Notes under the pieces: generated by a model
The model's database searches: none
Told to the model about the DNA's origin: nothing
What the model saw: only the letters and a program-made list of their open reading frames with translations
NCBI RefSeq assembly: GCF_900176145.1
Contig: NZ_FWWY01000001.1
Span: 2,307,595-2,371,594, forward strand
From: Sulfobacillus thermosulfidooxidans DSM 9293
GTDB lineage: Bacteria > Bacillota > Sulfobacillia > Sulfobacillales > Sulfobacillaceae
Length of the DNA stretch: 64,000 bases
Direction: 5' to 3'
Made by a program: the position numbers and the translations under genes
Part shown: positions 297 through 56,783 of the stretch, one piece after another
Position numbering within the stretch: position 1 is the stretch's first letter
Layout: every line of letters begins with the position of its first letter

Positions 297-397
297 GGGT
301 GAAGTCGGTAAACTGGACTGGTTTTATGACCTTGAGACTTTGAAATGATCAAATAATGGGTTGGGAATGGAATGAAATAGGTAAAATGGGGAAAGCT

Positions 398-448
398 GAC
401 TGTTAGATAATACCTTTCTCAAAGGAGTCTAACAGTCTAAGAGTCTAA
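398..448. repeat. Inverted repeat plus three tandem 7-mers (putative operator)
   Basis: A perfect 10-bp inverted repeat (GACTGTTAGA at 398-407, TCTAACAGTC at 428-437) encloses a smaller CCTTT/AAAGG hairpin. The right arm overlaps three copies of AGTCTAA at 426-432, 434-440 and 442-448, with an exact 8-bp period. The array ends at the ribosome site of the gene at 463. Iteron-like spacing suggests a protein-binding operator, possibly for the protein encoded next door; that link is inference. Confidence 0.55.
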
Positions 449-462
449 GGAGGCTTATCCCA

Positions 463-954
463 TTGGAAGTGACATTATCCCAGCTTATTGAATCTGCACC
501 GGAATTAGCGGTAGCCTTACGCACCGACATTCGCAAGGGAAAATTGGCAGCCAAACGGCAAGAGGGTGTGGCGGGCCGCCCCTATGTGGTAGATACCCAA
601 GCGTTAATGCAATCCGATCGCGAAGCTTTTCGGCAATTAGCTCAAGATTTGGAAGCCGGCCGAGAAGTGGTGCGTTCTCGCAATAGCAATGCGGGGAGAA
701 TTCATCACACATCCACTATTGGCAATGAGGCCAACTGGCAACCGTTTATGAAGATCATGGAATCGCAACAAAGCATGATGAGCCAGCTTTTGGAAGTGCT
801 AACCGATGAAATGCGACACCGTCAGGAACGTGTGGATCGTCAAGCGCGAGAAATGCAAGAGTTGTCCTATAAACTTGGCCAGTCGCATCAACAAATCGAG
901 CGGCTGGAACGTTTACTGAAAGACCATGCCGAAAATCATTTGGAACAAGCATAA
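463..954 (+). CDS. Unknown protein: N-terminal HTH-like domain plus coiled coil
   Basis: A 163-residue protein that I cannot place in a named family. Residues ~1-50 resemble a MerR-type winged helix (a basic stretch RKGKLAAKRQ, then a GRPY turn). Residues ~85-160 are rich in Q, E, R, M and L with heptad-like spacing, indicating a long coiled coil. This HTH-plus-coiled-coil build is shared by chromosome or plasmid anchoring proteins such as RacA, but I see no decisive motif. The start is TTG at 463, chosen because AAGGAGG lies at 448-454. The 8-bp-period repeats immediately upstream suggest autoregulation or a binding-site cluster. The gene stands alone between plsY and a MerR gene. Confidence 0.6.
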   Translation: MEVTLSQLIESAPELAVALRTDIRKGKLAAKRQEGVAGRPYVVDTQALMQSDREAFRQLAQDLEAGREVVRSRNSNAGRIHHTSTIGNEANWQPFMKIMESQQSMMSQLLEVLTDEMRHRQERVDRQAREMQELSYKLGQSHQQIERLERLLKDHAENHLEQA

Positions 955-1002
955 AACCGGATATCTTGGCAACGATTGATGGAGAATAATAGCGGGTTAG
1001 GT

Positions 1003-1027
1003 GGCAGGGGTTTTTATGACCCCTGCC
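1003..1027 (+). terminator. GC-rich stem-loop after the coiled-coil gene
   Basis: GGCAGGGGT (1003-1011) pairs with ACCCCTGCC (1019-1027) around a short T-rich loop. It lies about 50 bases after the stop at 954. There is no clear run of T after the stem, so it may be a weak terminator or an mRNA-stabilising hairpin. Confidence 0.4.
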
Positions 1028-1124
1028 AAATTCTTACCAACCTGTTTAGTTTCGTGTCAAAGTTCGGTAAGATGGTGGCGGAGCCTCAAAAGGTCGTTTC
1101 ACCTTAACAAAAAGGAGATGCGCT

Positions 1125-1559
1125 ATGAAAAATGCCAATCATTCGGATCAGCCTTCGTTTTCTATCCGTGTTGTAAAAGAGGCGACCGGTTTGACAGAAC
1201 GGCGCATACGCTATTATGAGACGTTGCATTTATTAGCGCCCAGGCGTACACAAGGAAATCAACGTTTGTATACTCAAGCAGACATTGATCGGTTGAAGTA
1301 TATTAAAAGCTTGTTGGACCATGGGGTGTCACTAAAAGAAGTGCGCGCCCAGCTTCAACAAGAAGATTTAATTGCGCATGACCGTGACTTTGATGATGTG
1401 GAGCGAGATGCTGAAAGTTATTTCCAAGGCAAACTAATTGCCCGGAAAGCCGAAATTCACCGGGATTCATTATATCCCTTAATCAATCGTCATGAGATTA
1501 TGCGCCGGTTAGTCCGTGACCACACAAGTGGGCACGAAGATACGAAAGGGGACCAGTAA
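1125..1559 (+). CDS. MerR-family transcriptional regulator, GlnR/TnrA-like
   Basis: A 144-residue regulator. Residues ~10-85 form a MerR-type HTH: LTERRIRYYE, then GNQRLYTQADIDRL and a helix ending GVSLKEVRAQL. The RRIRYYE and GNxRLY signatures are those of the GlnR/TnrA branch, which controls nitrogen assimilation in Bacilli. The C-terminal ~60 residues are charged and helical and lack the cysteines of metal-sensing MerR proteins. AAAAAGGAG at 1109-1117 supports the ATG. The next gene, hpt, begins three bases after the stop, so this regulator is translationally coupled to purine salvage (hpt) and GMP synthesis (guaA, a glutamine-using enzyme). I did not find a convincing TGTNA-N7-TNACA GlnR box upstream, so the ligand and targets remain open. 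Confidence 0.8.
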   Translation: MKNANHSDQPSFSIRVVKEATGLTERRIRYYETLHLLAPRRTQGNQRLYTQADIDRLKYIKSLLDHGVSLKEVRAQLQQEDLIAHDRDFDDVERDAESYFQGKLIARKAEIHRDSLYPLINRHEIMRRLVRDHTSGHEDTKGDQ

Positions 1560-1562
1560 AGG

Positions 1563-2105
1563 TTGCAGGGGGTTCAGGGAGAAGAGCTAGAAGTGCTCTT
1601 ATCTGCTAAAGACATTGCAAGTCGGGTGGAAAGTCTCGGCAAACGGATCACGTTAGACTATCAAAACAAACCATTGATTCTGATTGGGATTCTTAAGGGG
1701 TCTTTTATCTTTTTGGCGGATCTTATCCGGGCTATTGATTTACCTGTCGCCGTCGATTTTATGGCTCTGTCGTCTTATGGCAGTTCAACGAAGTCCTCTG
1801 GCGTAGTCCGCATCATTAAGGATTTAGATCATAGCTTGGAGGGGCACCATGTTCTCGTGGTCGAAGATATCGTCGACACCGGGCTCACGTTAAACTACAT
1901 TTATGGGCATGTGAAATCGCGTGGCGCCTTGAGCGTAAAAATTTGTTCGCTTTTGGACAAGCCTTCAAGGCGTCAAGTCGCTGTGCCCTTGCATTATAAA
2001 GGGTTCGAAATTCCGGATGAATTTGTTGTAGGCTACGGATTAGATGTCGGTGAACGCTACCGCAACTTGCCTGATGTCTGCAAGTTAGTGAGGGCAAATG
2101 GATGA
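1563..2105 (+). CDS. hpt: Hypoxanthine phosphoribosyltransferase
   Basis: A 180-residue type I phosphoribosyltransferase that converts hypoxanthine (and usually guanine) plus PRPP to IMP or GMP in the cytoplasm. The PRPP-binding loop VVEDIVDTG is near residues 98-106, and the [13 protein letters not shown] and [19 protein letters not shown] segments are typical of bacterial HPRT. The start is probably TTG at 1563, since GAAAGGGG lies just upstream. The stop overlaps the guaA start by 4 bases (ATGA), indicating one mRNA with guaA and, given the 3-base gap upstream, with the MerR gene. Length fits the family. Confidence 0.93.
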
Positions 2106-3622
2106 GTGATACGGTATTAGTTTTAGATTTTGGTGCGCAGTATAATCAATTGATTGCACGACGTGTGCGTGAAGCCCAGGTCTTTTGTGAAGTCGTACCC
2201 GGAGATATTTCTTACGAAGAAGTACGGAAGAAAAATCCTGCTGCCATTATTTTATCCGGGGGGCCGGCGAGTGTATTTGAACCGGGTGCTCCGAGTATGG
2301 ATCCGGCGATTTTAACAATGGGTATTCCTACCCTGGGAATCTGTTATGGGATGCAGTTGATGGCCCACTTGCTAAACGGCACGGTGACCCCAGCTGAACG
2401 GCGTGAATATGGGCGGACGCCCATGACTCTCACGCAATCTAGTCCGCTATTTTTAGACATTCCTGAACACAGCACTGTGTGGATGAGCCATGGCGACCAT
2501 GTGCTGAAAGCGCCGGAAGGCTTTACGGTACTGGCCTCGACCAATACCACGCCGATTGCAGCCATGGCCAATCCCGCTCGGAATCTCTATGCCGTGCAAT
2601 ATCATCCCGAGGTCCACCACACCGAAGGCGGGTTTCGGATGCTCCAGAACTTTTTGTACCAGATTGCGCATCTGGAACCAAACTGGCAGCCCGATCAGTT
2701 TATCCCGCAAGCTATTGCCCAAATTCGAGAAAAGGTGGGCAATGGCCGCGCCTTAATAGCCTTGTCGGGTGGAGTAGATTCCGCCTTGGCGGCGGCTTTG
2801 GCGCATGAAGCGATCGGGTCGAAATTGACGGCGATTTTAATTGATCATGGGTTGATGCGGCAAGGCGAAATCGAAGAAGTCGTCCAAGCATTTCCCTCGT
2901 TAGATTTGCGAGTTGTGCGCCGTGATGACGTCTTTTTTGCTGCGTTAAAGGGCGTCACGGATCCCGAAGCTAAACGGAAAATTATTGGTCGGGAGTTTAT
3001 TCGTGCGTTTGAACACGCCAAAGAGGCGATAGGTCCGGTGGATGTTTTAATCCAAGGGACAGTCTATCCCGATGTGATTGAATCGGGAGGAAAAAATGCC
3101 CGGACTATCAAGTCCCATCATAATGTCGGGGGTCTTCCCGACGATGTCGGGTTTGAAATTGTCGAGCCCCTCAGGTGGCTGTTCAAAGACGAGGTCCGGA
3201 AAGTCGGAGAGGCGCTCGGTTTGCCGGATAGTATTGTCTGGCGACAACCCTTCCCGGGACCTGGCTTAGCCGTGCGTATTGTTGGGGAAGTCACCCCAGA
3301 TAAGGTGGATATTTTGCGTCAAGCGGACGCCATTGTCCGCCAAGAGATCCGTAAAGCCGGTCTCGAACGTCAAATCTGGCAGGCTTTTGCCGTGCTTTTA
3401 GATATTCGTTCGGTGGGGGTCATGGGTGATGAACGGACCTATGGATTTCCCATTGTGATTCGGGCTGTCGAAAGTTTGGACGGGATGACAGCGGATTGGG
3501 TACGCTTGCCAGATGATCTTCTAGAAACTATGGCCAGTCGGATTATTGGAGAAGTACCGCGGGTCAATCGGGTTGTTTATGATATTACATCTAAACCACC
3601 GGGCACAATTGAATGGGAATAA
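2102..3622 (+). CDS. guaA: GMP synthase (glutamine-hydrolysing)
   Basis: A 506-residue two-domain amidotransferase that makes GMP from XMP, ATP and glutamine. The N-terminal class I glutaminase domain has the nucleophile in GICYGMQ (about residue 80) and the His-Glu pair in [10 protein letters not shown]. The ATP-pyrophosphatase domain starts with the P-loop [12 protein letters not shown] (about residue 220), and the C-terminal dimerisation domain ends with the conserved PPGTIEWE. Full length. It is the last gene of the MerR-hpt-guaA unit and is followed by a strong terminator. Confidence 0.97.
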
Positions 3623-55913: not shown

Positions 55914-56783
55914 ATGAGTGAAGCAGTCGACGCAGTGTTGCTGATAGGGCATGGCAGTCGCGATGAAGAAGGATCGAGACAATTTGATGAAATGGTAAAA
56001 CAGGTGGACGAAATATTAAAAAAGTCTTTGACAATCCCCGTATACCGGGCATTTTTGGAATTTGCCCGCCCCAGGATTGATGAGACCATTCACGAATTGG
56101 TAGCCAACGGCGTCAAAAATCTGGCGGCAGTACCGGTTATGTTACTCGATGCCGGACACAAAATGCAGGATATTCCCCATGAATTAGCGCATGCTGCACA
56201 AACCTATTCCGATCTCCATATTCGTTATGGAGATCATTTGGGATTTCATCCCGATATTATGACCGTAATCTTAAACCGCTTAGCGTCTTTTGCCGCTGAT
56301 CCGGATACAGGGATTCTCTTTGTCGGCCGAGGGAGTTCCGATCCGGTGGCGAATGCACATTTTTATCAAATGTCTCGCATGCTTTGGGAACGCACGGAAT
56401 ATGCCCTGGTAGAAAATGCATTTATTGGCATTACCTTTCCTTCTTTGCCACAAGGACTTCAACGGATTTACCAATTAGGCGCGCGAAAGATTATTGTGGT
56501 GCCCTACTTTTTGTTTACGGGAGCCTTATTTAAAAAAATTGAACGGGTTTCATACGAGTTTGCTGCGCAACATCCCGATGTGAAGCTGTCTGTGACCCAA
56601 TATTTTGGTCTGGAAGAGGAAATTATTCAGATCGTTGCGCAAAGAGTGCACGAAGTGCTCCGGGGAGAACATACCGCTTACAATGTTGAATGGATGCGCC
56701 ATTTGGCAGTGCACCGTTACCCAAGTTCCCATCATCATGACCATCATCATGACCATCACCATGGACATGCTCATCATCATTAG
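55914..56783 (+). CDS. cbiX: Sirohydrochlorin cobaltochelatase CbiX (His-rich tail)
   Basis: A 289-residue two-domain (long) CbiX that inserts Co2+ into sirohydrochlorin without ATP. The N-terminal catalytic His is in VLLIGHGSRDEEGSRQF, with AVPVMLLDAGHKMQDIP after it, and the second half is similar (LFVGRGSSDPVANAHFYQM). The C-terminal ~16 residues are almost all His with Asp, a metal store or cobalt donor typical of CbiX. ATG 55914 follows AAGAGGAATGG. Early cobalt insertion in the same operon as CobN is noted below. Confidence 0.94.
   Translation: MSEAVDAVLLIGHGSRDEEGSRQFDEMVKQVDEILKKSLTIPVYRAFLEFARPRIDETIHELVANGVKNLAAVPVMLLDAGHKMQDIPHELAHAAQTYSDLHIRYGDHLGFHPDIMTVILNRLASFAADPDTGILFVGRGSSDPVANAHFYQMSRMLWERTEYALVENAFIGITFPSLPQGLQRIYQLGARKIIVVPYFLFTGALFKKIERVSYEFAAQHPDVKLSVTQYFGLEEEIIQIVAQRVHEVLRGEHTAYNVEWMRHLAVHRYPSSHHHDHHHDHHHGHAHHH

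Follow-up and report, generated by a model that had tools for sequence, protein, structure and literature searches.

A lineage-specific Sulfobacillus protein predicted to join a winged helix to a coiled coil, its variable leader repeats and a possible link to sporulation

RacA of Bacillus subtilis is built from a helix-turn-helix domain followed by a coiled coil; the closest counterparts in predicted fold of the protein described here include BldC, a winged-helix protein of the MerR superfamily. RacA is reported to anchor chromosomes to the cell poles via DivIVA and to help condense the nucleoid (PMC6593407; PMC4125091), and BldC is a protein of 68 residues with no coiled coil (PMC5859096). 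The locus analysed here lies in a 64-kb stretch of the Sulfobacillus thermosulfidooxidans DSM 9293 genome (the window, Table 1), where the initial annotation had paired iteron-like repeats with a gene for a helix-turn-helix and coiled-coil protein, likening the pair to a self-regulated DNA-organising or partition-type module of RacA-like build while noting that motifs show no such function. We lean, if not strongly, towards a different account, in which the repeats are a duplication in the leader rather than iterons and the gene encodes an order-specific DNA-binding protein that apparently serves sporulation.

Table 1. Features of the locus, in window coordinates
Feature	Position	Strand	Basis or detail
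Conserved promoter-like element GGAATGAAATAGGTAAAATGGGGAAAGCTGA	369-399	+	near-invariant in 6 genus members
Inverted repeat / leader hairpin	398-437	+	arms 398-407 and 428-437, inner CCTTT/AAAGG
AGTCTAA direct repeats	426-432, 434-440, 442-448	+	exact copies, 8-bp period
AGTCTAAC AGTCTAAG AGTCTAAG, apparent local 8-bp tandem duplication	426-449	+	sequence, period count, copy number in genus
Shine-Dalgarno AAGGAGG	447-453	+	sequence; invariant in 6-leader alignment
Gene for 163-aa lineage-specific protein	463-954	+	TTG start; predicted winged helix-turn-helix ~1-68, linker 70-88, helix 93-162
GC-rich inverted repeat, read as terminator	1002-1028		between gene and MerR gene
MerR-type regulator (TnrA/GlnR-like DNA-binding domain)	1125-1559	+	PF13411, E 6e-20
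Hypoxanthine phosphoribosyltransferase-like (hpt)	1563-2105	+	ORF
GMP synthase-like (guaA)	2102-3622	+	ORF

The reading frame at 463-954 is a real gene, as judged from its Shine-Dalgarno sequence, placed 9 nt ahead of the TTG start at 463, and from its family members in 39 of the 42 genomes of the order (the window genome counted). The family alignment has a mean column identity of 49%; AGRPY in the wing is invariant, and so, within the conserved KLGQxHxEIxRLER stretch of the long helix (93-162), are K-L-G-Q-x-H and L-E-R. No Pfam or NCBIfam model matched the window protein above cut-off; MerR and MerR_1 are absent from its Pfam matches up to E 1, and MerR models likewise from the 10 families listed for 36 family members (E up to 0.01). 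One of these 36 proteins matches an excisionase model at E 0.044 in a separate search. We thus set aside the classical MerR family, although the neighbour at 1125-1559 does match it.

Folded alone with AlphaFold2, residues 1-68 give a winged-helix model (pLDDT 88, pTM 0.71), and in the full-length model (35 sequences, pTM 0.35) a linker of low confidence at residues 70-88 leads into a confidently predicted 70-residue helix, with block means of 90-98 for residues 101-150. Among VIA matches of the N-terminal part, BldC comes first (Z 5.6, rmsd 2.8 over 51 residues), with the Xis/excisionase and Mu transposase/repressor winged helices comparable (Z 5.4 for Pukovnik Xis, 5.1 for Mu transposase, and 5.0) and the RacA domain under them at Z 3.3; all of these structural matches are weak, with Z below 6, and a shared fold of this kind shows no function. 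Foldseek with the full model returned matches of E 0.11 or worse, the third of them the RacA-DNA complex 5i44 at E 0.36. Between them, the models and the weak but consistent matches support the helix-turn-helix-plus-coiled-coil build that had been proposed from the sequence: the N-terminal part is predicted to be a winged helix of MerR/Xis/BldC type, and on these models the protein as a whole adds a new, lineage-specific representative to the large class of DNA-binding proteins that combine a winged helix with a probable coiled coil. Alike as the predicted N-terminal folds are, the protein differs from BldC in carrying the long helix and in having no family match above cut-off, and from the Xis and Mu proteins in its setting, since phage and plasmid records yielded no match with E below 0.7 and no mobile-element genes were seen beside the gene.

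Within the 61 genomes searched (the window genome included), which comprise 42 of the order and 19 others of the class, the gene was found in 39 of the former, with one match each, and in none of the latter; of the 30 good genomes within the order, 29 carry it. Named carriers include records of Sulfobacillus thermotolerans, S. benefaciens, S. acidophilus and S. harzensis. A wider search of 299 genomes of the phylum, in which for some genomes 12 candidates were scored, yielded at least two weak matches outside the order. One protein (L078), with a helix-turn-helix and a helical tail, aligns at the winged helix and over profile positions 19-133; in the other (L079), a recombinase-like frame of 514 aa, the alignment falls in a coiled segment. 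From these searches the family appears to be order-restricted and single-copy. Among the papers searched, none joins Sulfobacillus with RacA, or Sulfobacillus with a coiled coil and helix-turn-helix.

The three AGTCTAA copies at an exact 8-bp period and the 10-bp perfect inverted repeat before the gene are present as first described, the arms GACTGTTAGA (398-407) and TCTAACAGTC (428-437) being perfectly complementary across a 20-nt loop. The third copy overlaps the Shine-Dalgarno sequence, which places the array in the translation-initiation leader. When 15 or more of 16 positions were required to match at lag 8, the window held this period-8 array and no other, and 60 sequences of 64 kb simulated with a first-order Markov model held none. 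The inverted repeat on its own is a commoner feature, since the window has 10 separate sites at which perfect 10-bp arms enclose a loop of 3-30 nt (22 k-mer hits, against a simulation mean of 2.5 hits). The only other array of period 6-12 reaching threshold in the window, at 56728-56763, consists of CAT/ATG-rich triplets in a 12-bp-period tandem repeat. Over the whole 3.86-Mb genome AGTCTAANAGTCTAA is matched without mismatch at this site alone (two overlapping matches) and with one mismatch at one other place, so that the search for further AGTCTAA arrays suggested by the initial annotation produced a single one-mismatch pair and no second exact array or pair.

Comparison with relatives is what chiefly speaks to the nature of the repeats. 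In 39 oriented loci of the gene (the window included), exact AGTCTAA was counted within 130 nt of the start, and we found three copies in the window genome, two each in G003 and G007, and one each in G005, G006 and G002, all members of the genus; across the eight genus genomes the copy number runs 3/2/2/1/1/1/0/0, and it is zero in all 31 leaders beyond the genus. The leader of the sister species G003, whose protein is 94-95% identical to that of the window, equals the window leader minus exactly one 8-bp unit. Because the copy number varies in this way among relatives that carry the gene, the array is best described as a local, variable duplication. An iteron, operator or partition-site reading was accordingly rejected, the gene being kept in 33 of 39 loci with no exact copy and the genome holding no other exact array; absence of the repeats from relatives that retain the gene is what the initial annotation had named as refuting its proposal. 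The repeats look like an ordinary leader duplication rather than a set of conserved binding sites.

A narrower proposal would have the repeats serve, in this species group, as true regulatory direct-repeat sites to which the protein binds head to tail in the manner of BldC. BldC is the best match of the winged helix, the copies recur at 8-bp spacing, and BldC is reported to bind direct repeats of varying number (PMC5859096); against this stand the BldC consensus given in that paper, AATTXXXX(C), which is unlike AGTCTAA, the fact that just 3 of the 39 leaders have two or more copies, the lack of a second exact array in the genome, and the position of the array over the Shine-Dalgarno sequence, downstream of the likely promoter. 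We regard such binding as very improbable.

What the duplication may do instead is alter the folding of the leader. Compared with shuffled sequences, the hairpin energy is low in the window genome (z -3.1) and in G003 (z -3.8). The GACU.UUAGA stem is kept in the MFE structures of G007, G005 and G002 at ordinary energy (z -0.9, -0.35 and -0.16), the leader of G006 folds differently (z -2.7), two other genus leaders have z 0.55 and -2.0, and 43-nt pieces of seven leaders from other genera range from z -0.7 to 1.5. A conserved RNA hairpin was rejected on these figures, since a leader with this stem is distinctly more stable than its shuffles in the window genome and G003 only, and so was a riboswitch or known RNA, Rfam returning for 290-1200 a single lncRNA-family match (E 0.31) far under its gathering score. 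The stem is nevertheless present in the MFE of five of the six genus leaders, which leaves room for a selected role of the repeats.

Just upstream lies the promoter-like element, in which the invariant columns of the block GGAATGAAATA(A/G)GTAAAATGGGGAAAGCTGA(C/T)T(A/G)TTAGATAATACCTTT are identical in six genus members, G007 having one extra G; AGTCTAAGGAGG is likewise identical in six, and the stretch separating the two blocks varies in length. Relaxed to G[AT][AT]T-N13-18-GGG[AG]?A, the element recurs across genera: 28 of 39 leaders have it, where mononucleotide shuffling predicts 2.8, an excess inflated by the kinship of the sequences. The remaining 11 comprise three with a near match (L014-L016) and eight with nothing similar by eye. 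The strict form occurs at three places in the genome: in this leader, where another reading frame ends some 13 nt ahead of an ATG (L080), and at a third site with no clear context (L082). Should the element at 369-399 act as a promoter, the transcript would begin near 399-402, and the inverted repeat would then be a 5'-terminal hairpin.

The sporulation gene sigG is a target of sigma-F, and it offers a point of reference within the order: from 30 fetched spoIIR loci (L091-L120), four with no sigG start being left out (L092, L093, L097 and L114), all 26 sigG upstream regions read contain GTATA-N14-16-GGNNATACT, a motif that we take to resemble the Bacillus sigma-F consensus, and 18 of these 26 have the form GGTGATACT. 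The element before our gene clearly differs from this motif and does not fit a sigma-F-type promoter of the kind seen before sigG. Only two SigB/F/G factors exceed cut-off in the window genome, which we read as SigF and SigG; a third, SigB, was not found over cut-off there. The sigma-B consensus is GGTTTGA-N12-15-GGGWAW; over the 42 genomes it is matched 93 times and its reversed control 65 times, a modest, 1.4-fold excess that decides nothing, with three of the 93 sites preceding this gene itself. Three related 12-mers, TCGGTAAACTGG (305-316), TAGGTAAAATGG (378-389) and TCGGTAAGATGG (1064-1075), stand before this gene and the MerR gene and are possibly a shared regulatory element.

Downstream, the order of the gene, a MerR-like regulator, hpt and guaA holds in 34 of 34 named loci. 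The regulator scores 64.6 bits against the NCBIfam TnrA-type model, under the cut-off of 140, and the two frames that follow (1563-3622) are presumably hpt and guaA, names recognised from sequence without a family search. This constant linkage would suit a protein that simply regulates transcription of the purine cluster MerR-hpt-guaA, or of its own gene, with the element at 369-399 as its operator, and so would the conservation of that element across genera and the rarity of its strict form. Against it, the putative terminator at 1002-1028 and a separate conserved promoter-like element stand before the MerR gene; the upstream element is missing from 11 of 39 leaders by regular expression; and one near-complete genome, considered below, keeps MerR-hpt-guaA with no intact copy of the gene. 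We hold this account to be unlikely, though deserving of serious weight. The separate element contains CGGTAA[GT]AT, which 13 of the 24 relatives read share at this place, while several others differ from it by a single base. Taken with an imperfect inverted repeat that holds TTTAGTTT and CGGTAAGATGG at 1025-1079, upstream of MerR-hpt-guaA, this recurrence suggests an unusual conserved promoter or operator.

The link to sporulation comes from a single lineage. Three genomes of the order were without the gene, and two of them are partial (G028, 71% complete; G030, 63%), so that G036, at 97%, is the sole near-complete genome of the order with no intact copy. In G036 neither spoIVA nor spoIIR was found, and the sigG model identified no sigG: it picked up two other sigma factors and no more, with E about 1e-35, a level at which its genus-mate G037 has further partial matches in addition to a true sigG. 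In G037 the gene, spoIVA and sigG are all present. Having kept Spo0A, with spoIVA, sigG and spoIIR not found, G036 is a candidate for a recently asporogenous lineage.

The two genomes are collinear on both sides of the locus (82.4% over 3,669 bases and 82.8% over 3,134 bases), G036 (L089, C9:18000-27000) having on one side a frame that we take by eye to be groEL-like and on the other MerR-hpt-guaA. Between them no intact copy of the gene was found; collinear fragments in different frames match the G037 protein at residues 1-53 and at 85-113, with a further, weak match to 149-161. The first two fragments reach a tblastn E of 1.9e-4, with 1 of 300 codon-shuffled controls attaining E 2e-4, and at the DNA level there is a 45-nt match at 78% (E 8e-5), making a decayed remnant of the gene probable. 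As the gene apparently decayed in the genome where spoIVA, sigG and spoIIR were not found, a link to sporulation is suggested, a lead resting on one loss event and no proof; the lineage looks like one that has shed late sporulation genes. The presence profile itself gives little contrast, because nearly all members of the order have spoIVA; G007, 61% complete, has the gene and no spoIVA match. The retention of Spo0A in G036, the purine-gene surroundings and the difference between the upstream element and that of sigG likewise count against the link. We also rejected spoIIR as a clean marker of sporulation, since 10 of the order's 42 genomes gave no spoIIR match, and eight of these keep the gene and have spoIVA matches. 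In these eight (G014, G016, G022, G025, G034, G038, G039 and G040) spoIIR, undetected with TIGR02837, is either divergent or truly missing.

The apparent loss together with spoIVA and sigG is also an indirect argument for a RacA analogue, which during sporulation would use its winged helix to bind dispersed origin-near sites and its coiled coil, with the help of a polar partner, to tether or condense the chromosome. The predicted domain order, the same as in RacA, and the third-ranking Foldseek match agree with such a role, but the fold match to the RacA domain is below those to BldC, Xis and Mu transposase, RacA appeared neither in a search of PDB sequences that admitted matches up to E 1 nor among NCBIfam matches of the window protein and family members, RacA belongs to another order, and further proteins of helix-turn-helix and coiled-coil build exist outside this one (L078). 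A RacA-like role retains the indirect support of G036, though these searches and models revealed neither a match in sequence nor a specific kinship in structure: the protein may work like RacA by analogy, while membership of the RacA family finds no support in these sequence searches. That the order evolved its own sporulation-linked chromosome organiser, a BldC/Xis-type winged helix with a coiled coil, encoded beside purine genes and decaying after sporulation was lost, strikes us as improbable.

The account we prefer, of a leader duplication before an order-specific DNA-binding protein gene, would run as follows. The AGTCTAA array would have arisen recently, when 8 bp of the 5' leader next to the Shine-Dalgarno sequence were duplicated by a slippage-type event, and the duplicated TCTAA/AGTC would pair with the conserved GACTGTTAGA, which lies close to where transcription probably starts, and so complete a hairpin; the duplication would, in consequence, at most tune mRNA stability or translation, and in few species. 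The MerR/Xis-type winged helix would bind DNA, and the long C-terminal helix would dimerise and present its KLGQxHxEIxRLER surface to a partner, the protein serving sporulation as a regulator or as a nucleoid- or chromosome-organising factor.

The locus illustrates that a neat direct repeat and palindrome before the gene of a DNA-binding protein can be mere local duplication. If the sporulation link is true, an unannotated coiled-coil protein that binds DNA is at work in a lineage of spore formers, possibly where Bacillus uses RacA, and the family would bear on chromosome handling in spore formers without RacA.
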